IMG/VR virus record: IMGVR_UViG_3300037847_002271
Span: 1 to 42,197 of that record
DNA: 42,197 bases
DNA from: a virus
Reading direction: 5' to 3' (one strand)
Shown here: positions 1,296-16,512 of the stretch, one piece after another
How positions within the stretch are numbered: the first letter of the stretch is position 1
How the letters are laid out: every line of letters starts with the position of its first letter
Program-made: the position numbers and the translations under genes
Notes under the pieces: model-generated
What the model was told of the DNA's origin: nothing
What the model saw: the letters and a program-made list of their open reading frames with translations, nothing else
The model's database searches: none

Positions 1296-3110
1296 ATGTC
1301 TAACACTATTCGGATCAAACGCCGCGCGTCAGGCGCGTCAGGCGCACCATCGTCTTTGGAGAACGCCGAACTCGCCTTTAATGAGGTCGATTCGACTCTC
1401 TACTATGGCGTAGGCACAGGTGGTGCCGGTGGCAGTGCAACTACTATCGAAGCCATTGCTGGTGCTGGTGCGTTTCTTGGCCTGAGCGGCACTCAAACTG
1501 TCACTGGCAACAAGACCTTCTCTGGAACTGTTGCTCTTGGCAGTTCTGCTACTGCTTCAACACCCACTAGCGGTGATGACAGCACAAGCGTTGCAACCAC
1601 TGCTTATGTGCAGGGTGAAGGCTTTATCACCGGCAACGAGTCAATCACCATTTCTGGTGATGCTTCTGGTTCAGGCACCACGTCAATCAGCCTGACACTG
1701 GCTAACAGCGGTGTTTCTGCTGGTACGACTTCCGGTATCACTGTTGATGCTAAGGGTCGCATCACTGCAATTACTGGTCTGGCTGCTTCGGATATTCCGA
1801 CGCTGACTGCTGCCAAGATCAGTGATTTTGACAGCACCGTTCAGGCAAACCGTCTGGACGAGATGGCAAATCCCACCGGTTCGGTGGATCTGAACAGCCA
1901 GAAGATCACAAACCTTGCAACTCCGACTGCTGCTTCGGATGCTGCAACCAAGGGTTATGTCGATGCTTCACAGCAAGGTCTGGACGTTAAAGAGTCCGTC
2001 AAGGCTGCAACCACTGGCAACATCACGTTGTCTGGAACGCAGACTGTTGACGGTGTCTCGCTGAGTGTTGGCGATCGTGTTTTGGTCAAAAACCAAAGCA
2101 CGGGCTCGGAAAACGGCCTCTATGTAGTCGCTTCTGGCAGCTGGAGTCGTGCTGCTGATGCTGATGCTGACAGCGAAGTTACTGCTGGCCTGTTCACCTT
2201 CGTCTCTGAAGGTACGGTCAATGGTGATGCAGGTTTCAGCCTGACAACCAACGATGACATCACTGTTGGTTCAACTGCACTGACCTTCACCCAGTTCTCT
2301 GGTGCAGGCAACATCACTGGTGGCGATGGCATTCAAAAGTCAGGCTCTGAACTGAGCATTGACGCCAAAGCCAACGGTGGTCTGGTCATTGAATCCAGTG
2401 AGCTTGCTGTTGATCTTGGTGCATCCAGCATCACCGGCACTCTTGCTATTGCTGATGGTGGTACTGGTGGAACGTCAGCTTCTGCTGCTCGCACCAACCT
2501 TGGTGTTGCCATCGGTTCTGATGTCCAAGCTCACGACGCCATCTTGGATGACGTTGCAGCCCTGACTCAAGCGGCTAACAAAGGTATCTTCTTTGATACC
2601 GGTAACTCTGCTGCCACGTTTGACCTGACTGCTGCAGGTCGGGCACTGCTTGATGATGCTGATGCTTCTGCACAGCGCACCACGCTTGGATTGGCAATCG
2701 GTACAAACGTACAGGCTGCGAATTCCAACCTTTCAGCGATTGCTGGTCTTACCAGTGCTTCCAACAAGCTTGCCTACTTCACAGGTAGCGGCACTGCTGA
2801 TCTGACTGATCTCAGCGCTTTCGCCCGTACTCTGCTGGATGATGCCAATGCATCTACAGCACGTACAACCCTTGGTGTTGCGATCGGTTCTGACGTTCAG
2901 GCTTACAACGCAAGCCTTGCAACGATCGGTTCGCTGGCTACTACTGACGGTGCATTTATCGTCGGTAACGGCAGCAGCTTCACTGTTGAGTCTGGAGCGA
3001 CTGCACGCACCAGCCTTGGTCTTGGTTCTATTGCTACTCAAGCAGCGAACAATGTTGCGATTACAGGCGGCACCATCTCAGGCATAGAACTAGATGGGGG
3101 TTCGTTCTGA
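1296..3110 (+). CDS. Tail fibre protein with repeated segments (604 aa)
   Basis: A long Ala/Gly/Ser/Thr-rich fibre protein. The N-terminus (SNTIRIKRRASGASGAPSSL, then 'NAELAFNEVDSTLYYG') is the attachment-type N-domain seen in many cyanophage fibres and is echoed in the gene at 39332. The middle contains 'SQKITNLATPTAASDAATKG' and 'DRVLVKNQ...ENGLYVV', common fibre modules. The C-terminal third holds repeats built around 'R(T)xLG(V/L)AIG(S/T)(D/N)VQA', beginning near nucleotides 2490, 2677, 2863 and 3006. It ends ELDGGSF. The likely role is a trimeric host-binding fibre. A strong terminator follows immediately. Confidence 0.85.
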   Translation: MSNTIRIKRRASGASGAPSSLENAELAFNEVDSTLYYGVGTGGAGGSATTIEAIAGAGAFLGLSGTQTVTGNKTFSGTVALGSSATASTPTSGDDSTSVATTAYVQGEGFITGNESITISGDASGSGTTSISLTLANSGVSAGTTSGITVDAKGRITAITGLAASDIPTLTAAKISDFDSTVQANRLDEMANPTGSVDLNSQKITNLATPTAASDAATKGYVDASQQGLDVKESVKAATTGNITLSGTQTVDGVSLSVGDRVLVKNQSTGSENGLYVVASGSWSRAADADADSEVTAGLFTFVSEGTVNGDAGFSLTTNDDITVGSTALTFTQFSGAGNITGGDGIQKSGSELSIDAKANGGLVIESSELAVDLGASSITGTLAIADGGTGGTSASAARTNLGVAIGSDVQAHDAILDDVAALTQAANKGIFFDTGNSAATFDLTAAGRALLDDADASAQRTTLGLAIGTNVQAANSNLSAIAGLTSASNKLAYFTGSGTADLTDLSAFARTLLDDANASTARTTLGVAIGSDVQAYNASLATIGSLATTDGAFIVGNGSSFTVESGATARTSLGLGSIATQAANNVAITGGTISGIELDGGSF

Positions 3111-3124
3111 ACTTTGATAAACAT

Positions 3125-3153
3125 CCTGCCGGGTAATACCGGCAGGTTTTTTT
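3125..3153 (+). terminator. Intrinsic terminator after the tail fibre gene
   Basis: A perfect 8-bp stem (CCTGCCGG / CCGGCAGG) with a six-base loop is followed by seven T residues, 14 bases past the stop codon of the 604-residue fibre. It is a textbook rho-independent terminator on the plus strand and closes the tail-fibre transcription unit. Confidence 0.93.
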
Positions 3154-3226
3154 ATGGACACTAATTAGAACCGTCCCATTGACTCTGCCAGTAAAGTAGG
3201 CAGCGGAAACGTTTCCCCACTCTTCC

Positions 3227-3580
3227 ATGATCAAACCATTTGCAATCGCTGTCTCTGGTGTTCTCGCTGGTTCAGCTGCTTTTGCAGGCCCTTATGCCAA
3301 CGTGGAAAATAATGCTGGATACCAAGACGGTTTCCTCGGTTCAACAACTGACCTTCACATTGGTTATGAAGGCGGTGATGAAACGTATGGTTTTTATCTG
3401 CAAGGTGGTCCCGCACTAATTTCTCCTAACGGAGGTGACGTTGAAATGGAACTGTCCGGCAAAATTGGCGGCAGCGTTCAAGCCACTGACAACTTCGGTG
3501 TTTATGGCGAGGTCAGCTTTATCACCACTGATGAAGAGCCTGCTATCGGCACCAAGATTGGCGCTACGTGGAACTTTTGA
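3227..3580 (+). CDS. Exported beta-rich, porin-like outer-membrane protein (117 aa)
   Basis: The first about 20 residues form a signal peptide (MIKPFAIAVSGVLAGSAAFA, cleavage after AFA). The mature part alternates polar and aromatic residues in short beta segments and ends in an aromatic 'GATWNF', the C-terminal Phe signature of outer-membrane beta-barrels. At about 97 mature residues it is too short for a full porin and would form at most a small barrel. I recall similar short 'GPY.NVE.NAG...TDLH.G.EG' proteins in marine cyanophages. It may alter the host envelope or superinfection. It lies between two terminators, perhaps as its own transcription unit. Confidence 0.75.
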   Translation: MIKPFAIAVSGVLAGSAAFAGPYANVENNAGYQDGFLGSTTDLHIGYEGGDETYGFYLQGGPALISPNGGDVEMELSGKIGGSVQATDNFGVYGEVSFITTDEEPAIGTKIGATWNF

Positions 3581-7647: not shown

Positions 7648-7899
7648 ATGTCGGTTGAACTCCCTTTAGAGGAGCAACTAATGCTAGAGAGACAGGTGCG
7701 TGCAGTGCATGACCATGTTGATGCTAAAGAAATTGCCGAATTATGCAGCTCACTGATTAGGCAAAATTTCCATCAGCAAAAGCTGCTGCAGCAAGCAATC
7801 ACTAGGATCATGGAGCTTGAGACCATTGAGGAATACCAAGACGACGAACCTGAACCACTACCCTGGTGGCGAAATGTCCTTCTGCGTTTTAAGTCTTAA
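7648..7899 (+). CDS. Small helical protein, possibly NblA-like (83 aa)
   Basis: The protein begins MSVELPLEEQLMLERQVRAV and continues with two amphipathic helices ('AKEIAELCSSLIRQNFHQQK', 'LLQQAITRIMELE') and an acidic, Trp-containing tail. The 'LPLEEQ..LE.QV' start and 'L..LIRQ...Q+.LL...' second helix recall the helical hairpin of NblA, the adaptor that directs phycobilisomes to the Clp protease; NblA genes are known in several cyanophages. The match is short and NblA is usually about 60 residues, so it could equally be an unrelated helical protein. ATG 7648 is chosen; an ATG at 7624 would add eight residues. The 3' end overlaps the sigma-factor gene by 42 bases, convergently. Confidence 0.6.
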   Translation: MSVELPLEEQLMLERQVRAVHDHVDAKEIAELCSSLIRQNFHQQKLLQQAITRIMELETIEEYQDDEPEPLPWWRNVLLRFKS

Positions 7900-8754
7900 T
7901 TTACGTAATGCACGTTCTTTGATTTGACGAGTGCGTTCACGACAGATGTTCATTTCTGCGCCGATGTGCGCCAATGCTTCAGTCTTGTTGCTTAAAAAGT
8001 AACGCTGAATGATTTCATATTCTCGATCATTTAATGTATCTAGTGCATCATTTAATGCTTGATGGTTGGCGCATTTAATCGCCATGCTTTCAGTATCGGC
8101 ATGAGATGAAGGATCAGGGATTTGTTGGATCAATGGTGAACCATCATCGTGGCAAAGCATATCAAGGCTTCGATGTTGTTTTGCCCTTTCAAACCACATC
8201 ATGACTTCTTCTACGGGCCGTTCAGCATGTTCACTCATTTCTTGCAGCGTTGGTCTGCGGTGAAATTGCTGCTCATAATCATTCATCCATTTACAAAGAC
8301 GGTTAATTTTTTCCAATGTATTTTGCGGCAAACGCACAACACGCGATGACATGTCAATAGCTCTGGTGATGCTTTGCCTAATCCACCAATACGCATAGGT
8401 GCTGAATTTATAGCCACGGGTTCCATCGTATTTTTCGACAGCACGTTGCAAGCCTATGCAACCTTCCTGCACAAGGTCTGGCAGTTCTAGTATTGTGCCC
8501 TCAATTCGTGGTGCATATTTACGAGCAACATTTACAACCAGCCGTAGGTTGCCGTTTATCAACTTTTCCTTTGCACGACGACCTGAACGAACAACACGCT
8601 GCTCTTGTTTTGTCAGTGGTTCTTTGTCTAAATTTCGTTCTAACAGCAGATCTTGCATCGCAAAGATGCGACGCGACAGCTGTATTTCTTGCTCAGCTGA
8701 AAGCAATGGATGCTTGCCGATTTCATTTAGAAAGTGTCTGAACGAATCGGCCAT
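7858..8754 (-). CDS. Sigma-70 family RNA polymerase sigma factor (298 aa)
   Basis: All conserved parts of a primary-like sigma factor are present in order: region 1.2 ('SFRHFLNEIGKHPLLSAEQE'), region 2 ('LINGNLRLVVNVARKYA', 'DLVQEGCIGLQRAVEKYD', 'GYKFSTYAYWWIRQSITRAI'), region 3 ('RVVRLPQNTLEKINRL...RPTLQEM') and region 4 with its helix-turn-helix ('LAHIGAEMNICRERTRQIKE'). It lacks the long region 1.1. Region 2 closely resembles cyanobacterial group 1/2 factors. It would bind host core polymerase and redirect transcription, probably to phage late promoters. ATG 8754 directly follows a terminator hairpin and T-run, with no ribosome-binding site, so its expression may be attenuated. An upstream extension to 8883 reads through that hairpin and is rejected. 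Confidence 0.93.
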   Translation of the reverse strand: MADSFRHFLNEIGKHPLLSAEQEIQLSRRIFAMQDLLLERNLDKEPLTKQEQRVVRSGRRAKEKLINGNLRLVVNVARKYAPRIEGTILELPDLVQEGCIGLQRAVEKYDGTRGYKFSTYAYWWIRQSITRAIDMSSRVVRLPQNTLEKINRLCKWMNDYEQQFHRRPTLQEMSEHAERPVEEVMMWFERAKQHRSLDMLCHDDGSPLIQQIPDPSSHADTESMAIKCANHQALNDALDTLNDREYEIIQRYFLSNKTEALAHIGAEMNICRERTRQIKERALRKLRLKTQKDISPPG

Positions 8755-8755
8755 G

Positions 8756-8787
8756 AAAAAAGCTGCTACCGGCAAAGGGTAACAGCT
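8756..8787 (-). terminator. Intrinsic terminator/attenuator abutting the sigma-factor start codon
   Basis: On the minus strand, AGCTGTTACC pairs with GGTAGCAGCT (one mismatch, 7-base loop), then six T residues run to within one base of the sigma-factor ATG. It lies 31 bases past the ssb stop. It should terminate most early transcripts after ssb, so sigma expression would need readthrough or antitermination. Confidence 0.88.
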
Positions 8788-8818
8788 TGCGATTTTGGTG
8801 TCTATTGATTGTTGCAGC

Positions 8819-9145
8819 TTAGAAGGGCACCTCTGCATCGGTTGCGTTGTTTTCACGCGCTGGCAAGGTGAAGTCAGTGACATTCACGTTTAAGCTCTGT
8901 TTTTCAGTGCCATCCTGTGTTGTGTAGCTGTTCAGCTTGCCTTGCCCAGCGATAGTGATCTTTGCACCCTTGCGAAGGTATTCAGCGGCAGTCTGAGCGC
9001 GTTTGCCCCACACAGCGCAGTTCATCCATGTCGTTTCATCTTTGCCGGTACGAACAGCAAGGCTGAAGCTTGCAACTTGATTTTGCCCGACGTTTTTCAG
9101 TTCAGGGTCTTTGCCGAGGTTGCCGTATGCAGTGATGTTGAGCAT
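8819..9145 (-). CDS. ssb: Single-stranded DNA-binding protein (108 aa)
   Basis: OB-fold SSB: 'MLNITAYGNLGKDPELKNVG', 'VASFSLAVRTGKDETTWMNC', 'AVWGKRAQTAAEYLRKGAKI', 'GQGKLNSY'. The end DAEVPF is a shortened form of the acidic DDDIPF-like tip by which SSB recruits partner proteins. It coats single strands during replication and recombination. It lies three bases after the HTH gene and is last before the terminator, in an operon with an annealing protein and an exonuclease. Confidence 0.95.
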   Translation of the reverse strand: MLNITAYGNLGKDPELKNVGQNQVASFSLAVRTGKDETTWMNCAVWGKRAQTAAEYLRKGAKITIAGQGKLNSYTTQDGTEKQSLNVNVTDFTLPARENNATDAEVPF

Positions 9146-9148
9146 TGA

Positions 9149-9373
9149 TCAGTTGATGGGTGTGATGTTGTTGGATTGCTCCCAGGCAAGAACGTCTGCG
9201 AGCTTGTAGCGAATCATTGGTGTTTTCGGTGAAATACCAAGGGGACCAACTCTGTAAAAAGCTGGCCCTTGTCCACGAGAACGCCAACGCTTGATGGTGT
9301 TTGGTTTTAGGTCATAACGAACGGATAGATCTTCAGTGGTGAGATAAGTGTTGATGTCGTCAGTGCTGGTCAT
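9149..9373 (-). CDS. AlpA/excisionase-type HTH DNA-binding protein (74 aa)
   Basis: A winged-helix protein of the MerR/AlpA/excisionase superfamily: 'YLTTEDLSVRYDLKPNTIKR' forms the helix-turn-helix, 'WRSRGQGPAFYRVG' the wing, and 'IRYKLADVLAWEQS' the following helix. Such proteins are excisionases or small regulators. No integrase is present in the window, so a regulatory role is more likely. Its start overlaps the erf stop (ATGA). Confidence 0.85.
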   Translation of the reverse strand: MTSTDDINTYLTTEDLSVRYDLKPNTIKRWRSRGQGPAFYRVGPLGISPKTPMIRYKLADVLAWEQSNNITPIN

Positions 9374-9972
9374 TTTTCAAATTCTTTCAGCTCTGATTGT
9401 TTGTTAAGCAGCAGCTTCAGCAGATCATCGTATTCCTGTTTGCTGATGTCTTTTTTGTCGAACCGTTCAGCAACACGTTTGCTTAGATCAGATAATGAAT
9501 CAAGCGTCTTTGCTGCTTTAATTGCCTTTTGCCCAGCTTGAAAGGCTTGAGATGCAACCGCTTGTTTTACGTTTGCAGGTTTAGCTTGCGCTGGTGTTGT
9601 CTTGTTTGATGGCGGCAGATCAGGTACATCATCGGTATCCATATCAGCCACGACGCCTAAGATCGCGCAGATTGAAAACCTACGTTGATAGGTAACGGCT
9701 TTGCCCCATTCCTGGGTCATGTTGCGACCGTCGCACATGATCAATTTGCAGGAACTGGATAACGTCTCGCCGCTTTCGTGGTGCAGCGTAGTGACCAGCG
9801 AATCATCAAGAAACGTTTGAGTGATTGCCAAACCATTTGCGTGCAGTGCAGGTGTCACGGTAGAAAGCACATTCGCCAGATCAGCAAACTTGCCGTAGTT
9901 GGCGCGTGCATTCTTTTCGATCTTGTCCACGGCTTTATGGAAGCCGATCAGTGCTTTTGTCAGTTCAGACAT
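9370..9972 (-). CDS. erf: ERF-family single-strand annealing protein (200 aa)
   Basis: ERF superfamily features: N-terminal 'FHKAVDKIEKNARANYGKFA', 'VTPALHANGLAITQTF', and the diagnostic 'GKAVTYQRRFSICAILGVVA' followed by 'DMDTDDVPD' (residues about 90-118). The C-terminal half is a Lys/Ala-rich linker with a helical end. ERF proteins anneal complementary single strands in phage recombination and genome circularisation. It overlaps the exonuclease stop by one base (TGATG) and the HTH start (ATGA). With the RecE-like exonuclease and SSB it forms a complete annealing system. Confidence 0.93.
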   Translation of the reverse strand: MSELTKALIGFHKAVDKIEKNARANYGKFADLANVLSTVTPALHANGLAITQTFLDDSLVTTLHHESGETLSSSCKLIMCDGRNMTQEWGKAVTYQRRFSICAILGVVADMDTDDVPDLPPSNKTTPAQAKPANVKQAVASQAFQAGQKAIKAAKTLDSLSDLSKRVAERFDKKDISKQEYDDLLKLLLNKQSELKEFEK

Positions 9973-10784
9973 CAGAAATCATCAGGTGAAAGTTCGATGT
10001 TTGTGGCGTAGCTAGGCAGTGACAGCGTTGAAATGTCATTGCTATAGCCAGGCCACTGGTTGCGTTCCTTGCAAGTCTTGATGCGGTTCATGTCACGTTG
10101 CCGCAACTCCTCACCAATCCCGCAGGCTTCGTTGTCGAGTTCATAAACACCCACGTTAAATGGATATTCTTTTTCGACAGCAACAAAAACAAATCGTGCT
10201 GCTTTAGTGCCCTGCAGATAGTGCATCTGCTGGACGTGATACCTCCACTTCGCAACGCTTGAGGCAAAACCGCGTGGGCTTGCATCTTGCGTTGTCTTGA
10301 GGTCTATAACAATATCACCGTTCCACCAATCAGGGCGACATTTGCAACGCAACTCAAACTGTTCATCATCCCACCAAACTGATTGTTCGGCTTTGCCTTC
10401 TGATAACAACCAGGCAGCTTCAGGATGATTACGAACAGAGTCGCACATCGCTAACGCTTGATCCCATTGCGCTTGGGTTACAGGTTCAATCCCTTGGTCG
10501 ATCAGCTTGTTGTAAGTTGTGGAGCCTTTGCGAGTGGCGCAGACTGCATAACGTCGATCAAGATCGTCAGGTTCAAGAACAGCAGTGTGAACAAAAGTGC
10601 CAAGCCGCATAGCAGCAGTAGATTCGGACGGAGGCCGTTCAGGATCGAGATACTTTTTAAAGTAGGTGTGCGGGTTGTGCGAGATTGCGTGCAGGTGTGA
10701 TGCTGAAATTGCTGGGTCGGCATGATACTCAGCATTAGAAATCATTGAGTATATGCCAGTGCTAGCGGAGGGTAACACGGTCAT
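9972..10784 (-). CDS. RecE-like PD-(D/E)XK exonuclease (DUF3799 type, 270 aa)
   Basis: The N-terminal 'YHADPAISASHLHAISHNPH' and 'AAMRLGTFVHTAVLEPD' (His66) and the core 'CRPDWWNGDIVIDLKTTQDA' (Asp152, Asp161, Lys163), with a following 'YHVQQMHYL' helix, match the PD-(D/E)XK exonucleases related to the nuclease domain of RecE. The expected activity is 5'-3' degradation of double-stranded DNA to give tails for annealing. The downstream ERF gene overlaps by one base, which supports a functional pair. The start at 10784 overlaps the previous stop (ATGA). Confidence 0.9.
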   Translation of the reverse strand: MTVLPSASTGIYSMISNAEYHADPAISASHLHAISHNPHTYFKKYLDPERPPSESTAAMRLGTFVHTAVLEPDDLDRRYAVCATRKGSTTYNKLIDQGIEPVTQAQWDQALAMCDSVRNHPEAAWLLSEGKAEQSVWWDDEQFELRCKCRPDWWNGDIVIDLKTTQDASPRGFASSVAKWRYHVQQMHYLQGTKAARFVFVAVEKEYPFNVGVYELDNEACGIGEELRQRDMNRIKTCKERNQWPGYSNDISTLSLPSYATNIELSPDDF

Positions 10785-11912: not shown

Positions 11913-12094
11913 GCCATAGACCATCTCCTAGCGGTAGTCTGACTGCACTTGTATCTGATGGCGATTTGTTTCCAGGTTGCACCATTCCGGCGCATACGCT
12001 GAATGCGGGTGTGACGCGATTCAGTAGCCCAAAGCAACAAGACTACTGGAAACAGCACCACAACCAGCACCCACGCGAAGAAGCAGGTGGTCAT
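11909..12094 (-). CDS. Membrane-anchored helix-turn-helix protein (61 aa)
   Basis: A strongly hydrophobic N-terminal helix (FFAWVLVVVLFPVVLLLWA) is followed by 'RIQRMRRNGATWKQIAIRYK' and 'CSQTTARRWS', a homeodomain-like HTH similar to those that scan for 'G.s..eIA...g.s..TV.+.'. It is the first gene after the minus-strand TATAAT promoter. A 61-residue protein with both a membrane segment and an HTH is unusual; it could tether DNA to the membrane or act as a membrane-regulated repressor. The opposing plus-strand frame is Pro/His-rich and looks non-coding. Confidence 0.65.
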   Translation of the reverse strand: MTTCFFAWVLVVVLFPVVLLLWATESRHTRIQRMRRNGATWKQIAIRYKCSQTTARRWSMA

Positions 12095-12114
12095 GATTCA
12101 GTTGTAAAATGGGG

Positions 12115-12141
12115 TGGTGGCCGATCGCAGCTCGACCACCA
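12115..12141 (-). promoter_or_regulatory. Leader hairpin of the early minus-strand operon
   Basis: In the leader of the minus-strand operon, TGGTGGTCGA pairs with TCGGCCACCA (one G-T pair) around a 7-base loop, followed by CCCCATTTTAC, 21 bases before the ATG at 12094. It may act as a weak attenuator or protect the mRNA 5' end. Confidence 0.5.
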
Positions 12142-12209
12142 AAGCTGACCCTTATCGTGTCTAGGGCAGAGAATCCAGCGCCGATCTATCTGGCTTGTGG
12201 CGTGAACCT

Positions 12210-12238
12210 ATTATACACCAGATGTGCCCCCATTGCAA
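12210..12238 (-). promoter_or_regulatory. Sigma-70 promoter for the early minus-strand operon
   Basis: On the minus strand, TTGCAA (-35), a 17-base spacer and a perfect TATAAT (-10) form the best promoter seen in the window. Transcription would start near 12203, giving a leader of about 110 bases to the first gene at 12094. Confidence 0.75.
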
Positions 12239-12250
12239 CGCGTTCAACGC
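12237..12250. promoter_or_regulatory. Overlapping palindromes, operator candidate
   Basis: AACGCGTT and GCGTTCAACGC, two perfect palindromes, overlap at the -35 box of the minus-strand promoter and lie upstream of the divergent plus-strand promoter. This is a position from which one repressor could control both. Confidence 0.4.
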
Positions 12251-12274
12251 TTGTAACAGCATGAGCACCATGCC

Positions 12275-12303
12275 TTGACCTGTCTCCTATACATTAGTAA
12301 CAA
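12275..12303 (+). promoter_or_regulatory. Candidate plus-strand promoter
   Basis: TTGACC, 17 bases, TAACAA; the predicted start lies just before the ATG at 12318. The -35 box is good and the -10 box is moderate. Confidence 0.5.
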
Positions 12304-12317
12304 CAGCTACTAAATCA

Positions 12318-12455
12318 ATGAACGTGCTTTCACTCCTCCAGCGCAAAGAGCAAAAGCAGCAACTGCTTAAGATCGCTCAAAAGCAATCACTGCAGCCTTC
12401 GCAGCTCTGCTATCGCGGCGTTTGCTATTCAACAGTCAAAGCGGAATCACGGTGA
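12318..12455 (+). CDS. Small DUF4278-like peptide (45 aa)
   Basis: MNVLSLLQRKEQKQQLLKIA, then 'LCYRGVCYSTVKAESR'. The 'LxYRGVxY' motif is the hallmark of DUF4278 peptides common in cyanobacteria, whose function is unknown. A plus-strand promoter candidate lies just upstream. The last 20 bases overlap the RusA gene in antisense. The motif points to a cyanobacterial host. Confidence 0.6.
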   Translation: MNVLSLLQRKEQKQQLLKIAQKQSLQPSQLCYRGVCYSTVKAESR

Positions 12456-12870
12456 TCAATGCGCCAGGCGGTTCACTGCCAACGCAATACCGCTTTTCTG
12501 CATTCAGACTCACCACAAGACAATCATCAGCAAACACGCTGTCGGTCAGTGCATCAAGCGTTGACCGGCAGCATTTATCAATGTCGTTTCGTTTCACAAC
12601 GCAGTGCTTAGGCGCTGCTGCCTTTAGTTGTTGATTTGTTGTGAAATGTGCCTTCGGTCGTTTGAATCGAAATATCACGGACACGCTGCAAGCGCAAGTC
12701 AATAGCTCACATTCTTGATCCTTCATTTGCTGTTGTGCGCACGCTGAAACAGCTTGCCTCCATGGCTTGCATCGTTTGGATGCTTCGATTAGTCTTCCGC
12801 CACCCACATGGCGCTTACTGCCTTGTGGTGCTGGTTCAATATCGTTCACCGCGATATGGATCACTTCCAT
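12436..12870 (-). CDS. rusA: RusA-like Holliday junction resolvase (144 aa)
   Basis: The catalytic signature 'KRNDIDKCCRSTLDALTDSV' followed by 'FADDCLVVSLNAEKRY' supplies the conserved Asp residues (about 96, 98, 106, 115, 116) and Lys126 of RusA-family endonucleases. N-terminal 'PAPQGSKRH' is the usual substrate-binding strand. Length fits the family (120-145). It would resolve branched DNA before packaging. It is divergent from the plus-strand gene at 12895, with only 24 bases between the starts. Confidence 0.92.
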   Translation of the reverse strand: MEVIHIAVNDIEPAPQGSKRHVGGGRLIEASKRCKPWRQAVSACAQQQMKDQECELLTCACSVSVIFRFKRPKAHFTTNQQLKAAAPKHCVVKRNDIDKCCRSTLDALTDSVFADDCLVVSLNAEKRYCVGSEPPGALITVIPL

Positions 12871-12894
12871 CCTTCATTCATTGCTTCGCACAGC

Positions 12895-13434
12895 ATGACG
12901 GCAAATCTCAGCCTTCCACAGTCAAGCGGTTCAAACTTTAAATTCCAAACAGGAACAATCATCAGCCTTTGCCCTGGCAAGAATTTTTTCTACACGCACG
13001 TTGCCGGGCAGCTTTGCATGACATGGCTTGATGACGACAAGACTTTGAAAAAGGACATGCTGCGTTGCGGTGACAACGTGTCTCTAATGGGTGTGATTGA
13101 AACCACCGATGGTGGCAGGGCACCATATAAAGGCAACTGCGTTCCGCTTCCGTTGCAGATTGATGCACTAAAGCGTTCCATTGAATATCGACTCGCAAAG
13201 CAAGAAACTGTCGAGACGATTGAGATTGAAAAACAGGAGATTCCTGTTCAACAATCTGTGCAACGTGCTGACATTGGCCGGAAACCTCGCGTCACGATCA
13301 CAGAAGATTTCTTGGCTGATTATGTAGCTGAATGGGCTGCAGCCAAGAATTACACCACAGCAAATTCTGCAAGCAAAGCAGTGATGGACATTATTCGTGC
13401 AGCAATGCGTGCAGGGCTGAAGCCGAATGAATGA
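12895..13434 (+). CDS. Hypothetical early protein (179 aa)
   Basis: From ATG 12895 the protein has a beta-rich N-terminal half ('NFKFQTGTIISLCPGKNFFY', 'MTWLDDDKTLKKDML') and a C-terminal helical part ('TEDFLADYVAEWAAAKNYTT') that could be a small DNA-binding fold. An upstream ATG at 12808 would overlap the RusA coding region and is rejected. The 3' end overlaps the next gene by eight bases. No family recognised. Its position before the replication gene suggests a DNA-metabolism role. Confidence 0.7.
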   Translation: MTANLSLPQSSGSNFKFQTGTIISLCPGKNFFYTHVAGQLCMTWLDDDKTLKKDMLRCGDNVSLMGVIETTDGGRAPYKGNCVPLPLQIDALKRSIEYRLAKQETVETIEIEKQEIPVQQSVQRADIGRKPRVTITEDFLADYVAEWAAAKNYTTANSASKAVMDIIRAAMRAGLKPNE

Positions 13435-13669
13435 AGCACAACGCAAACAGCTTCTGGCTGCATTGATCAAGGACCGCGATGAAACACGCGCTGCCCTTGA
13501 ATTCATCAAACAGCAAAAGCAACACGAAGAAACCCTCTATTGGGAAACCGGCGTGATTCGTGAAACCACACGTTTTGATGATTCACAGCTCAGGCGTCAT
13601 GCTGACTGTCTTTTCATGCAGCATGAACAGACCTTGAAGGCGTATTTCCAATCAATGAAATCGCCGTAG
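13427..13669 (+). CDS. Small charged helical protein (80 aa)
   Basis: MNEAQRKQLLAALIKDRDET, followed by more charged helix ('FIKQQKQHEETLYWETGVIR') and 'FDDSQLRRHADCLFMQHEQT'. Almost entirely helical with heptad character. Overlaps the upstream gene by eight bases, so translation is probably coupled. Followed by a hairpin that is a terminator only in the opposite direction. Function unknown. Confidence 0.7.
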   Translation: MNEAQRKQLLAALIKDRDETRAALEFIKQQKQHEETLYWETGVIRETTRFDDSQLRRHADCLFMQHEQTLKAYFQSMKSP

Positions 13670-13686
13670 AATTAACGGCACGCAAT

Positions 13687-13712
13687 AAAAAAGCCACCGC
13701 GCCAACGGTGGC
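13687..13712 (-). terminator. Intrinsic terminator in antisense orientation before the replication gene
   Basis: On the minus strand GCCACCG pairs with CGGTGGC (6-base loop) and is followed by six T. No minus-strand gene ends here. On the plus strand the same stem, extended by outer CACGCA/TGCGTG pairing, lacks a proper T-run. It could end an antisense RNA made from the origin side. Confidence 0.75.
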
Positions 13713-13741
13713 TTGCGTGTCCAGAAGGACAACACCCCTAA

Positions 13742-13816
13742 GCACAACTCAGCAGCACACCTAGTTGCACAACTCAGTTGCACACCTAGTTACACAACTC
13801 AGCAGCACACCTGGAG
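13742..13816. repeat. Three 25-bp direct repeats (iteron/operator-like) before the O-like gene
   Basis: Three contiguous 25-bp units, each of the form RCACAACTCAGYWGCACACC plus five more bases, at 13742, 13767 and 13792. The second contains the palindrome CAACTCAGTTG. The third runs into the GGAGG ribosome-binding site of the replication gene at 13825, so protein bound here could block its own expression. Confidence 0.88.
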
Positions 13817-13824
13817 GGTAGCAC

Positions 13825-14631
13825 ATGCCAAACAAAATCAGTGCAAGCGGATTCGCTGCACTTCCGTACAAGCTCATGGATCAAGCCGATGCTGCTACAT
13901 GGGCGGTTTATGCCGTCTTGCATCGTCACGGCTGGAACTCAGACCAAGGGTGCTGGACATCGTTAGAGACGATCCGCACTGAAACAGGCATTAGCCGCAA
14001 GGTGATCCAGCGTTCACTTGCGTGGTTAAAGGACAGCGGTTGGGTTGAAGCCCAAAAGCGCCCTGGTTATAGCACGGTGTACTTCGTCAAAACCGATGCA
14101 CCAACAAAGGTTTCACCTAGGGCGAAAAAGACCCAGGTCGAATTTGACCCAGGTCAAAAACGACCTAACCCCCAGGGCGAAAACGACCTAACCCCTAGGT
14201 CAAAAACGACCTACGAACAAGAACCCAAGAACAAGAACCCAAGAACAAAAACCCAAGGCGCAAGCGCCGAAAACGGGAACAAGGATCCAAACCGACTCAA
14301 GAAGCTGCCACCGTCGTCTGTGCCAGGTGACTTAACCGGCTGCGGTGACTTGCTTATCGAGTTTTGGTCTGTGAAAAAGGGTGTGCGTTCGACACCAGTG
14401 CTTAATCGGATCTGCAAGAAGCTGCGCCAGTGGTCGCTACAAGACCGCAGAACGGCCCTAGAAGCAGCGATCACCTCTGGCTGGGGTGATGTGTTCCCAC
14501 CGCGAAAACAAGCCGGTTACAGCCCCGCACAGGAGCCAGAACACAAGCACCCAGCGCATCGCGTGTTTACCGCTGATCGTGGTTTTAATGATCAGCCCGC
14601 AACAAATCCAATCCTTAAGGATCTCTTTTGA
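13825..14631 (+). CDS. Replication initiator-like protein, lambda O-type organisation (268 aa)
   Basis: The N-terminal 100 residues form a winged HTH ('ALPYKLMDQADAATWAVYAV', 'GCWTSLETIRTETGISRKVI', 'SLAWLKDSGWVEAQKRPGYS') of the kind in phage replication proteins that bind iterons. The middle (about residues 98-150) is low-complexity and hydrophilic, and here the DNA itself carries iterons and A-rich repeats. The C-terminal part ('GDLLIEFWSVKKGVRSTPVL', 'LRQWSLQDRRTALEAAITSG') is helical and may recruit host replication proteins. The arrangement of DNA-binding head, origin within the linker and C-terminal loader-interaction domain is that of lambda O. A strong GGAGG precedes the ATG. Confidence 0.8.
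   Translation: MPNKISASGFAALPYKLMDQADAATWAVYAVLHRHGWNSDQGCWTSLETIRTETGISRKVIQRSLAWLKDSGWVEAQKRPGYSTVYFVKTDAPTKVSPRAKKTQVEFDPGQKRPNPQGENDLTPRSKTTYEQEPKNKNPRTKTQGASAENGNKDPNRLKKLPPSSVPGDLTGCGDLLIEFWSVKKGVRSTPVLNRICKKLRQWSLQDRRTALEAAITSGWGDVFPPRKQAGYSPAQEPEHKHPAHRVFTADRGFNDQPATNPILKDLF
14119..14212. repeat. Replication origin iterons inside the O-like gene (5 copies)
   Basis: Five 16-bp dyad units of consensus AGGKCRAAAAMGACCY (one has an AATTT centre) start at 14119, 14135, 14151, 14174 and 14197; the third and fifth are identical (AGGTCAAAAACGACCT). Spacings are 16, 16, 23 and 23 bp. Form and location match the lambda origin iterons, which are also dyads with an A-rich centre inside the initiator gene. 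Confidence 0.85.
14215..14256. repeat. A-rich 14-bp triplicate next to the iterons, candidate unwinding element
   Basis: GAACAAGAACCCAA occurs twice exactly and a third time with one change, at 14215, 14229 and 14243. The plus strand has no T in this stretch. Its place directly beside the iterons corresponds to the easily melted part of the lambda origin. Confidence 0.7.
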
Positions 14632-14822
14632 TGTCAACTACAGCTTTTGATTTAACTTCTGTGCGCCACAAGCTGCGGCACATGGTTGAACAAGGTCTCG
14701 TCACAATCGAACAGCTTGATCAACCCTCGCCAGGCTTCAGATCCAACATGAATGTTTCACTGCATCACTTCCCTTCTGGTTATCGCGGCGTGCGACACCA
14801 AAACCTGCTTCGCGATCAATGA
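14631..14822 (+). CDS. Small hypothetical protein (63 aa)
   Basis: ATG 14631 overlaps the initiator stop (TGATG). The N-terminal helix 'SVRHKLRHMVEQGLVTIEQL' is followed by 'FPSGYRGVRHQNLLRDQ'. Start and stop both overlap neighbours, as in a tight operon. No family recognised. Confidence 0.65.
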   Translation: MSTTAFDLTSVRHKLRHMVEQGLVTIEQLDQPSPGFRSNMNVSLHHFPSGYRGVRHQNLLRDQ

Positions 14823-15073
14823 AAACCGACACATTTAAATGCAACGGCTTGATCATTGAACGTCGCGAAACACGTGAAGGCCCATCCCCATACTTTGTCA
14901 CCTACTACAAAAACACCTCGCGCATCACCACTGATGTCAAATCAATCAAGCGTCAGCTCAAACTCGGTAGAGGCACAGAAACCCTCCAACAGCTCAACGA
15001 TTGGCTGGAATCTTTTTCTCCAAAAGTCGCAGCCCTCCCCGAAGCGTCAAAACACACTGCAGATGCTGCTTAA
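14819..15073 (+). CDS. Small hypothetical protein (84 aa)
   Basis: MKTDTFKCNGLIIERRETRE with beta strands then 'VKSIKRQLKLGRGTETLQQL', an alpha/beta small protein. Overlaps the previous gene by ATGA and the next by eleven bases. Probably real from the coupling; function unknown. Confidence 0.65.
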   Translation: MKTDTFKCNGLIIERRETREGPSPYFVTYYKNTSRITTDVKSIKRQLKLGRGTETLQQLNDWLESFSPKVAALPEASKHTADAA

Positions 15074-15278
15074 CAACATGTTCGACGTTTCCCAACGTCA
15101 AGAACCAGTTATCGACATGCTTGCAGACTTGCTAGACGAAGCCAAGGCAACTGCTGCTGCAATATCTGACAATGCAATCGAAGAGCATCGGCCAATCCCA
15201 AAAGACTTGCTACGATCCCTCAACAATGACCTTGAACGCATCAAGGCTTACTTATTGACTGCTGCTGATGTCGCTTAG
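15063..15278 (+). CDS. Small helical protein (71 aa)
   Basis: From ATG 15063: MLLNNMFDVSQRQEPVIDML, 'ADLLDEAKATAAAISDNAIE', 'LLRSLNNDLERIKAYLL'; helical and acidic. An alternative ATG is at 15078. It overlaps both neighbours. The acidic helical profile would suit a partner of the following RHH protein, but this is speculation. Confidence 0.6.
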   Translation: MLLNNMFDVSQRQEPVIDMLADLLDEAKATAAAISDNAIEEHRPIPKDLLRSLNNDLERIKAYLLTAADVA

Positions 15279-15531
15279 AAGGTTTACTCTCCGTCTTGAT
15301 GAAAAAGACATTGAAATCATCGACAGACTTGCGGACGAACAAAACAGCACACGCGCTGACATCATCCGCAACTCACTGCATCAAAAAGCAATCACAACCG
15401 ATGCACTGCATCAGGTGACAACTGCCATCCGCAAACGTTTTCATGGCATCTTCACTGCACAACAGGCAGAACAAGCCGCAGCCATTGCAATCTTCACCAT
15501 CGCGGCGAATCAGCAGCAAAAGGCTGCGTAG
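15268..15531 (+). CDS. Ribbon-helix-helix DNA-binding protein (87 aa)
   Basis: The N-terminus 'SLRRFTLRLDEKDIEIIDRL' plus 'ADEQNSTRADIIRNSLHQKA' has the beta strand and two helices of CopG/Arc-type repressors (strand residues R-F-T-L-R-L contact DNA as a dimer). The rest is Ala/Gln-rich helix. It likely regulates nearby phage genes. Overlaps the preceding gene by eleven bases. Confidence 0.8.
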   Translation: MSLRRFTLRLDEKDIEIIDRLADEQNSTRADIIRNSLHQKAITTDALHQVTTAIRKRFHGIFTAQQAEQAAAIAIFTIAANQQQKAA

Positions 15532-15634
15532 CATCCTCAACACCTACGACGACTTCTACACATCCCTGTATCACGATCGCCTCAATCCTCAACCGCAAAA
15601 TGAGCAGCAGCTACTTTCACGATTGGATCGCTGA
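15443..15634 (+). CDS. Possible small protein overlapping the RHH gene (63 aa, doubtful)
   Basis: The second half ('ILNTYDDFYTSLYHDRLNPQ') looks coding and fills the 68-base gap after the RHH gene, but the first half overlaps that gene in another frame and looks like shadow sequence. A start nearer 15520 would need a non-standard codon. Confidence 0.3.
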   Translation: MASSLHNRQNKPQPLQSSPSRRISSKRLRSILNTYDDFYTSLYHDRLNPQPQNEQQLLSRLDR

Positions 15635-15818
15635 CATTGCACCACAAGCAATGCAACCTGTACTACCCGAAGCGCAGGACACTGAAGCCATGATGGATCG
15701 TGTCATCCTTCTGGAACTTCTTTTTCATCTAGACAAACGCTTCGATCGCAATCACCCGCATCACAACACCTACACCGGTCTCTGGCAGCAATACCAAAAC
15801 AATGGCAACCATCTCTGA
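15600..15818 (+). CDS. Small hypothetical protein (72 aa)
   Basis: MSSSYFHDWIADIAPQAMQP, then an acidic helix 'AMMDRVILLELLFHLDKRFD' and a His/Asn-rich end. Overlaps the next gene by 17 bases. No family recognised. Confidence 0.6.
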   Translation: MSSSYFHDWIADIAPQAMQPVLPEAQDTEAMMDRVILLELLFHLDKRFDRNHPHHNTYTGLWQQYQNNGNHL

Positions 15819-15990
15819 AAAGTACATCGGCAACCACGAAGTACACACCAGCCCGCGTGGCAGTAAGTACATCATCACTGACGATGGCCGAAAGCTCTAC
15901 ATCTCAAACACCAACAAAACCTATCGCCGCAGCTTCACTCCGCCACGCGGTGCATACGCTCGTTTCCTAAATGCACAAAACTCTGTATAG
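15802..15990 (+). CDS. Small basic hypothetical protein (62 aa)
   Basis: MATISEKYIGNHEVHTSPRG, then 'SKYIITDDGRKLYISNTNKT' and a basic Tyr/Arg tail. Beta-rich; the end 'PRGAYARFLNAQNSV' is Arg-rich. It closes the chain of small genes before the terminase module. Confidence 0.65.
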   Translation: MATISEKYIGNHEVHTSPRGSKYIITDDGRKLYISNTNKTYRRSFTPPRGAYARFLNAQNSV

Positions 15991-16012
15991 TCAAAGCAAT
16001 AATTAAAGCTGC

Positions 16013-16333
16013 ATGGCCCGAAAAGGCATAAAAGCAGAAACTGATTTACGAGTTCAGGAATGCGCTCGAATTCTTGCTAATGGTGGCAAGCGTTCAGATT
16101 GTCTTCGGTACGCTTCCGAACATTGGGGTGTAAGTGATCGTTCTGTTGATTCCTACCTGAAGCTTGCACGCGAACAAATGAGGGCAGACTGGGATTTAGA
16201 ACGCCCGCAGATGGTTGCTGATTTGCTGTCGCAATGCTCAACCTTGCAGATGGAAGCACGGCAGAAAGGACATCTCAGTGTTGCCCTGGGCGCCATCAAC
16301 ACCGCAGCCAAACTCGCACAACTCGTTTCATGA
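16013..16333 (+). CDS. Terminase small subunit (106 aa)
   Basis: The N-terminal HTH ('ECARILANGGKRSDCLRYAS', 'EHWGVSDRSVDSYLKLARE') would bind the packaging site, and the C-terminal 'GHLSVALGAINTAAKLAQL' helix is typical for small terminases of this type. It lies two short genes before the large subunit. The stop overlaps the next start (ATGA). Confidence 0.82.
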   Translation: MARKGIKAETDLRVQECARILANGGKRSDCLRYASEHWGVSDRSVDSYLKLAREQMRADWDLERPQMVADLLSQCSTLQMEARQKGHLSVALGAINTAAKLAQLVS

Positions 16334-16512
16334 CTGAGATTCAGCCCGTTAAGAATGAAGAGTTCTGGTACGAACCCACAGAAGACAGCATGTATCGCGT
16401 GCACATGAAGATCAATGATGTGACTGCATCTTGCACAGTGTCGTCGATGCACTTGATCGAAGAAAAGCGTGCGCAACTGCGCGGTGCATGTTTGCGTAAT
16501 GTCGATTCTTGA
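16330..16512 (+). CDS. Small hypothetical protein between terminase subunits (60 aa)
   Basis: MTEIQPVKNEEFWYEPTEDS and 'MYRVHMKINDVTASCTVSSM' give a beta-rich domain, followed by a helix 'HLIEEKRAQLRGACLRNVDS'. Overlaps both terminase genes by a few bases, implying coupled expression. Could be a packaging accessory; no family recognised. Confidence 0.7.
   Translation: MTEIQPVKNEEFWYEPTEDSMYRVHMKINDVTASCTVSSMHLIEEKRAQLRGACLRNVDS

Follow-up and report, generated by a model that had tools for sequence, protein, structure and literature searches.

The question raised by this locus is where, and by what means, replication of the virus starts. The window, which is the whole stretch of 42,197 nucleotides forming IMG/VR record IMGVR_UViG_3300037847_002271, carries an array of dyad repeats within the coding sequence of a putative replication initiator. 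The original prediction regarded the array as a lambda-type origin embedded in an O-like gene. The layout, the match of the encoded protein to an O-like PHROG, and the coupling between its recognition domain and the repeats all support this claim. As far as can be judged from sequence, the region 14119–14268 is very probably the replication origin of the phage, lambda-like and placed within the gene that encodes its initiator. The features of the region are listed in Table 1.

Table 1. Features of the putative replication origin and its surroundings (positions in the window)
Feature	Position	Strand	Sequence or basis
Leftward intrinsic terminator-like hairpin, upstream of the O-like gene	13691..13714	-	10-bp stem and T tract
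O-like replication initiator gene, 268 aa	13825..14631	+	PHROG 678, Pfam HTH_36, KBS-S-2A homologue
Winged-helix domain, aa 23-88	13891..14088	+	AF2 model, block pLDDT 64-83
Putative recognition helix, aa 58-71	13996-14037	+	Within winged-helix domain
Iteron 1	14119..14134	+	AGGGCGAAAAAGACCC
Iteron 2	14135..14150	+	AGGTCGAATTTGACCC, AATT centre
Iteron 3	14151..14166	+	AGGTCAAAAACGACCT
Iteron 4	14174..14189	+	AGGGCGAAAACGACCT
Iteron 5	14197..14212	+	AGGTCAAAAACGACCT
Three 14-bp A-rich T-free repeats, putative unwinding or single-strand element	14215..14256	+	GAACAAGAACCCAA x3
Short inverted repeat directly after the A-rich block	14257..14268	+	GGCGC-AA-GCGCC
C-terminal helical domain and tail, aa 149-268, putative replisome-recruiting	14269..14628	+	AF2 C-terminal model

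The five iterons are 16-bp A-centred dyads with a start-to-start spacing of 16, 16, 23 and 23 bp. They lie approximately 290 bp inside the O-like gene, in linker codons. The predicted number, length and spacing of the dyads were thus confirmed at 14119–14212. The proposed consensus AGGKCRAAAAMGACCY is found exactly in four of the five iterons and does not hold for the second one, which has an AATT centre and differs at three positions. With up to three mismatches allowed, the consensus has 13 matches in the 42-kb window, versus 2.95 expected and a maximum of 7 in 100 shuffles; six of the 13 matches come from this array, in which a near-palindromic site scores once on each strand. The reading frames of the iterons are 0, 1, 2, 1 and 0, and those of the three A-rich repeats are 1, 0 and 2. 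As the copies are spread over all three frames, they do not represent a protein repeat. Codon shuffling of the gene (300 shuffles) gave at most two clustered copies and never the four of the real gene. Among 500 synonymous shuffles that keep the protein, 24 reached three copies and none reached four. Together with the frames, this indicates that the constraint acts on the DNA.

The product of the gene matches the PHROG 678 profile, 'replication initiation O-like', with an E-value of 8.3e-18 over residues 20–248. Lambda O matches the same profile (phrog_678) over residues 1–172 (E 1.7e-35). The score of the O-like protein against Pfam HTH_36 exceeds the cut-off. The Pfam family Phage_rep_O (PF04492), which is matched by lambda O, phi80 gp15 and P22 gp18, gave no match to the window protein at E-values up to 0.1. 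In the profile alignment with hhalign, the winged helix corresponds to that of the lambda/phi80/P22 O profile with a probability of 83% (E 9e-6, 63 columns, 16% identity); the C-terminal parts of the two gave no profile alignment. The array had been predicted to lie in the linker of the winged-helix protein, and the linker, residues 96–153, is indeed predicted to be disordered (AF2 pLDDT under 50). The AF2 model of the C-terminal part has a mean pLDDT of 71 and helices at model residues 20–35, 42–53 and 57–70. A Foldseek search of the full model in the PDB returned weak winged-helix matches, none with an E-value under 0.001, and the C-terminal model had no match there with an E-value under 4. 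In BFVD a single match of the C-terminal model is strong (E 1e-7), the viral protein matched being unnamed; its other matches are weak, and some of them are named replication proteins.

The iterons are directly followed by the A-rich block. Its description as a 14-bp triplicate without T proved correct. The block is contained in the longest T-free run of the window (14213–14285, 73 nt), the runner-up being 40 nt long. The expectation that the block melts easily was not borne out: 13% of the window positions melt more easily when 30-bp segments are compared, and 19% with 45-bp segments. Within the O-like gene only 1–3% of the positions do so. The best 45-bp segment of the block has a nearest-neighbour value of −58.9, compared with −50.0 for lambda, which is the less stable of the two, and an A+T content of 58% with strong strand asymmetry. 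The block is therefore only mildly unstable and its striking feature is the strand bias. In the melting profile of the window it is no outlier.

Some T occurs in the repeats of relatives such as KBS-S-2A. A triple AACCC motif with a period of 13–15 bp is present in all 48 distinct genes, including that of the window, and in none of 2400 codon-shuffled genes. A scan of viral contigs for the A-rich repeat, using DNA alone, yielded eight stretches, five of them in O-like winged-helix genes with iterons. Three of the eight belong to loci of the earlier set (L012, L036 and L044), and two new O-like winged-helix genes were found in L093 and L097. Both new genes have GGTACCAAAAGGTACC-like sites, recognized by eye, and in their C-terminus they are similar to L046–L066. 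The pattern was found without an O-like gene in L092 and L095, which represent one unrelated coding sequence, and in L096, where the stretch is AT-rich and contains no long reading frame. On these comparisons the triplicate behaves as a separately conserved element.

Letter shuffling gave an inverted repeat as good as that at 14257–14268 in 2 of 100 cases. An inverted repeat follows the triplicate in 33 of 35 distinct cases, the one reported for L034 being located further down. Its sequence is altered on both arms in L026–L028 (CGCGC/GCGCG), and a different, longer hairpin takes its place in L046–L066. The repeat is missing in L036 and L044; in these two loci a CCCC/GGGG pair seen by eye overlaps the last A-rich repeat. 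In the stricter shuffle control of 30 distinct stretches, 28 have a hairpin that no more than 2 of 100 letter shuffles equal, and none was found in L036 and L039. The terminator-like hairpin upstream of the gene is conserved as well. A hairpin beside an A-run was detected in 24 of the 26 loci examined, the window included and one mismatch allowed, and its stems vary on both arms (ACCG/CGGT, AGGG/CCCT, GACGG/CCGTC). In 12 of 14 loci tested it is matched by no more than 1 of 100 letter shuffles; L036 and L044 have none. The terminator possibly ends an oop-like RNA. In the interval from the terminator to the O-like gene, a sigma-70 promoter scan showed no promoter pointing leftward, and an Rfam scan of 12000–16500 returned nothing. 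Three 25-bp direct repeats (GCACAACTCAGCAGCACACCTAGTT) are located at 13742–13816, between the leftward terminator and the gene. They are present in L001, shortened in L004 and not seen in the other relatives inspected.

The search for the array in related genomes showed that the relatives with an O-like winged-helix gene carry iterons and, with few exceptions, the triplicate, with an iteron sequence that depends on the class. A tblastn search over 50,697 phage records found nine records, the best being two KBS-S-2A records with 47% identity over the full length. KBS-S-2A, which infects Synechococcus WH7803, is the closest isolate. The terminase–portal DNA matched eight records, the nearest being KBS-S-2A and S-H1 (Synechococcus WH7803), with Prochlorococcus phages more distant. 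The virus appears to infect marine cyanobacteria. In IMG/VR, 13 relatives were found with the single protein and 99 with an alignment, of which 80 were kept. A few partial genes aside, the relatives form three sets. The first set contains O-like genes related over their full length. The second, L046–L066, aligns by tblastn only to about residue 144 and has a different C-terminus, yet it carries the helix signature, the iteron and the A-rich triplicate of the window. In the third set, L067–L090, the alignment to the window protein is confined to the C-terminal part. A pattern scan of cellular genome contigs for proviruses gave 64 matches, of which none could be verified as a relative. By eye, one 864-aa product of S-H1 resembles a primase over its first 200 residues, and the one gene examined in MED4-184 is not O-like.

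The geometry of the array was compared in 25 sequences picked from 49 to span the iteron classes. Measured from the first AACCC, A-tract centres are found at −16.5 to −17.5 and at −40 to −41.5 in all 25 of them, and at −63 to −65 in 24, the exception being L064. The proximal iteron spacing is thus kept across the classes.

Winged helices of at least six types occur among the relatives, and every type has an iteron of its own. For 48 distinct O-like genes, grouped by the helix at residues 55–70, the RK.xQR helix goes with the iteron AGGTCRAAAACGACCT in 33 of 33 genes, [QE].V.RR with CCCCTNNCAAAAACGNNAGGGG in 7 of 7, PDHVRQ with CCCCNAAAARGTG-type sites in 3 of 4 by the strict pattern, VKDVQQ with ACCAAAAGGTCAT in 2 of 3, and VKDVRE with AAAAAGCCCT in the only gene of its class. 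The grouping leaves out the ribbon-helix-helix-like genes and the partial genes L013 and L045. The strict pattern agrees in 46 of the 48 genes and no gene shows the pattern of another class; since the patterns were drawn by eye from the same sequences, this correspondence describes the coupling rather than tests it. L039 was handled apart (ORF 2521–3372); its sites are CACGAAAACGTG-like and it represents the sixth winged-helix type. A seventh type seems to be present in L093 and L097.

The coupling was also assessed by approaches that are less circular. Mantel tests were performed on 36 of 49 genes, with 11 near-duplicates of L049 and two partial genes dropped; the iteron measure was the 5-mer content of the 105 bp that precede the triplicate. 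The distance between iteron DNA correlates with that between residues 45–92 (r 0.72, 0 of 5000 permutations) and between residues 1–44 (r 0.44, 0 of 5000); for the C-terminus r is 0.08, with 619 of 5000 permutations. A search of IMG/VR for tandem pairs of class A iterons, based on DNA alone, found 41 contigs, and in all of them the array lies inside a winged-helix gene with an RK..QR-type helix. The helix was identified by pattern in 36 of them and by eye in L131, L132, L141, L142 and L153, L132 being cut at the contig end. Eleven of the 41 contigs are outside the earlier set and may be among the 19 relatives dropped from the 99. The A-rich triple is present in 38 of the 41; L122 is cut off, and L141 and L153 do not show it by this pattern. 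The corresponding tandem scan for class B gave nine contigs, all of them known class B members already. By sequence comparison, the N-terminus of the initiator and the iterons show cognate specificity.

A cognate initiator–origin pair predicts that the recognition domain and the iterons are exchanged as one unit. Such an exchange is evident from the comparison of the window with L019. The two are 98% identical in the segment for residues 1–43, 64% in that for residues 44–92 and 95% in the C-terminal part. The iterons are 50% identical, the A-rich block 100% and the next 42 bp, comprising the hairpin and spacer, 93%; the flanks are 87–88% identical. A cognate protein–site cassette explains this pattern directly. 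L018 shows the opposite arrangement: the whole gene is 82–98% identical by segment, with 93% in the recognition part and 97% in the iterons, whereas the flanks align at only 48–53%. A similar gene inside dissimilar flanks implies that the gene moves as a unit. Origin specificity therefore appears, on the sequence comparisons, to travel as a cassette of recognition domain plus iterons. The architecture, the constraint at the DNA level, the fixed geometry and the joint inheritance of the recognition domain and the iterons are established features of the locus.

The order of iterons, A-rich block and inverted repeat inside an O-like gene is that of the lambda origin; for the iterons and the block after them, the original prediction had stated this. 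The lambda O gene contains four A-centred dyad iterons spaced by 20, 24 and 23 bp according to its record, the first of which is ATCCCTCAAAACGAGGGA, A-centred like the dyads of the window. P22 has the same spacing. Lambda O, phi80 gp15 and P22 gp18 likewise are winged-helix initiators with A-centred dyads in the middle of the gene followed by an A-rich tract, and the proximal spacing of 23 and 23 bp in the window is close to the 23–24 bp of lambda and P22. An inverted repeat (I4) follows the A-rich tract in lambda and phi80 as it does in the window, with arms of 12 nt in lambda. In P22 and phi80, oop is annotated upstream of the O-like gene, at the place occupied by the leftward terminator in the window. 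The window differs from lambda in several respects. Its winged helix scores as HTH_36 and not as Phage_rep_O, its iterons number five and the two distal intervals measure 16 bp, the A-rich block is a less unstable T-free triplicate of a 14-mer, and a P or DnaB-type gene was not found among the window proteins scanned. P22 has two direct 14-bp repeats in its A-rich region. A periodicity of 14 bp was considered as a universal trait of the lambda family and rejected (p 0.78 for lambda, 0.45 for phi80 and a borderline 0.053 for P22).

Outside the marine phages, the best matches to the protein are the O-like proteins of the Pseudomonas phages phi2, MD8, LESphi3 and PotUPM1 (E 5e-6 to 1e-4). The O protein of MD8 is of the HTH_36 type, like that of the window. 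The O-like genes of phi2 and PotUPM1 contain 6–7 repeats, and by eye GAACC-type repeats directly follow the iterons in the Pseudomonas O-like genes (L163, L160). The post-iteron repeats of MD8 have a best lag of 12 bp (p 0.0005 by letter shuffles). The Pseudomonas phage iterons differ in sequence and have no AAAA centre, and, unlike in the window, a P-type gene is annotated next to the O-like gene in phi2 and MD8. The counterpart in the closest isolate is CPKG_00028 of KBS-S-2A, annotated as 'hypothetical protein', a homologous gene with an A-rich triplicate and a hairpin as in the window. The gene context is also the same, with a RusA-like gene upstream on the other strand and the terminase downstream. 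KBS-S-2A differs in having another winged-helix type, and its iterons are of the form CCCCCAAAAGGTGGT. The unwinding elements of RK2 and of E. coli oriC are likewise short repeats, 13-mers, beside initiator sites; the excerpts available of their description (PMC5043065) call them A+T rich, while the window block is strand-asymmetric at the A+T content given above.

Several other genes were noted in these genomes. The window encodes a phage sigma-70-type factor with regions 1.2 to 4 at 7858–8883, and KBS-S-2A has one annotated RpoD. At 8819–10784 lies a recombination module in which the gene of an ERF-type annealing protein adjoins one of the PDDEXK exonuclease-VIII-like type; an SSB gene occupies 8819–9145. 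A putative DNA polymerase is reported in the accessible part of the KBS-S-2A genome paper (PMC3751600). No P-like loader, helicase or primase family was detected among 30 window proteins scanned against the PHROGs, including those of the adjoining ORFs at 14628–16333 that were judged to be likely genes, nor among ten KBS-S-2A proteins scanned.

We infer binding, melting, helicase recruitment and origin firing to proceed as follows. The O-like protein would bind the five A-centred dyads through its N-terminal winged helix, probably as dimers, and the bound protein would form an O-some. The O-some would then strain and open the neighbouring T-free triplicate, and the exposed strand, together with the C-terminal domain, would recruit the host DnaB helicase, primase and Pol III. 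For lambda and P27, the available sections of one paper describe O as a dimer and place the iterons and an AT-rich tract in the middle of O; the tract is not needed for O-some formation and is crucial for unwinding (PMC7466680). No loader or helicase was found among the proteins scanned; the C-terminal domain may recruit DnaB directly.

The dyads could instead be an autoregulatory or silencing operator of the winged-helix protein and have no role as an origin. The coupling between helix and dyads points to cognate binding sites, not to replication as such, and relatives with another N-terminal domain have repeats just upstream of the gene, a place typical of an operator. In the window, however, the sites are about 290 bp inside the gene, at a fixed spacing to a T-free triplicate that usually is followed by a hairpin, the layout matches the origins of lambda, phi80 and P22, and the protein matches O-like families. 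An operator is accordingly regarded as unlikely. It can also be argued that replication starts elsewhere and that the array is a hotspot of mosaic recombination, with the A-rich block and the N-terminal codons serving as mere homology anchors. The borders of the swaps do fall on conserved stretches, and GC skew does not point to the array. Yet L046, L049 and L065 keep the triplicate although their segment for residues 1–43 is only 48–60% identical and their C-terminal DNA 39–42%, and the iterons retain both dyad symmetry and spacing, so that a hotspot without an origin is very improbable.

The GC skew, which had been suggested as a check, showed no origin mark at the array and was counted as evidence neither way. 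The cumulative skew of the window reaches its peak at 12 kb and then declines until 16 kb; that of KBS-S-2A falls from 14 kb to 22 kb, and its array likewise lies on the falling flank. As there is no clean switch at the array, GC skew was dropped as an origin marker. A further explanation, that the repeats belong to a low-complexity protein linker and have no function in the DNA, agrees with the predicted disorder of the linker. It is contradicted by the synonymous shuffles, none of which had four copies (0/500), and by spacings of 16, 23 and 14 bp that are no multiples of three, with copies in all frames, and its probability is close to nil.

The C-terminal domain of the initiator is also found in another context. 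By eye, it is fused to ribbon-helix-helix-like N-termini in L067–L090. L068 gave no family match in profile searches. Several of these genes have repeats of about 10 bp just upstream of the start codon, e.g. L068:3285–3361, and the repeat sequence seems, by eye, to track the N-terminal subtype. The repeat finder reported such repeats in L068 and not in L067, L073, L080 and L087. The AACCC triple was not found near the 24 genes of L067–L090.

Returning to the origin reading, we tentatively propose, as a possibility that is still rather doubtful, that cyanophage origins are plug-in modules of three parts: an exchangeable cassette, a class-independent triplicate and a C-terminal adaptor. The recognition helix with its own iterons would form the exchangeable cassette and set the specificity. 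The triplicate (AACAARAACCCA x3) would probably be read as a single strand by a shared host factor; its retention through cassette exchange and C-terminal replacement argues for such reading and not merely for a weak duplex. Loading of the host helicase would be done by the conserved C-terminal adaptor, with no P protein involved. Joined to ribbon-helix-helix-like domains that have their own repeats of about 10 bp, this adaptor would make a different sort of phage initiator.

A cyanophage origin of this kind, of which the original prediction knew no marine example, was not seen in the portions available of open-licence PubMed Central papers; as only open-licence literature was covered, priority cannot be claimed. 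A paper on Nostoc cyanophages, in its accessible part, marks an 'ori' on the map and does not mention iterons. That cassettes have been exchanged between phages which otherwise differ little suggests that changes of origin specificity are selected for. According to one report (PMC4488673), phage growth can be arrested by additional copies of the cognate origin, which makes satellites or competing phages a plausible driver. How the phage captures the host DnaB is a question that follows from the apparent lack of a loader. If the reading of the locus as an origin is true, a group of marine cyanophages would gain a defined origin together with its initiator, with Synechococcus as a host in which to test both, and plasmid tools could make use of the small origin.
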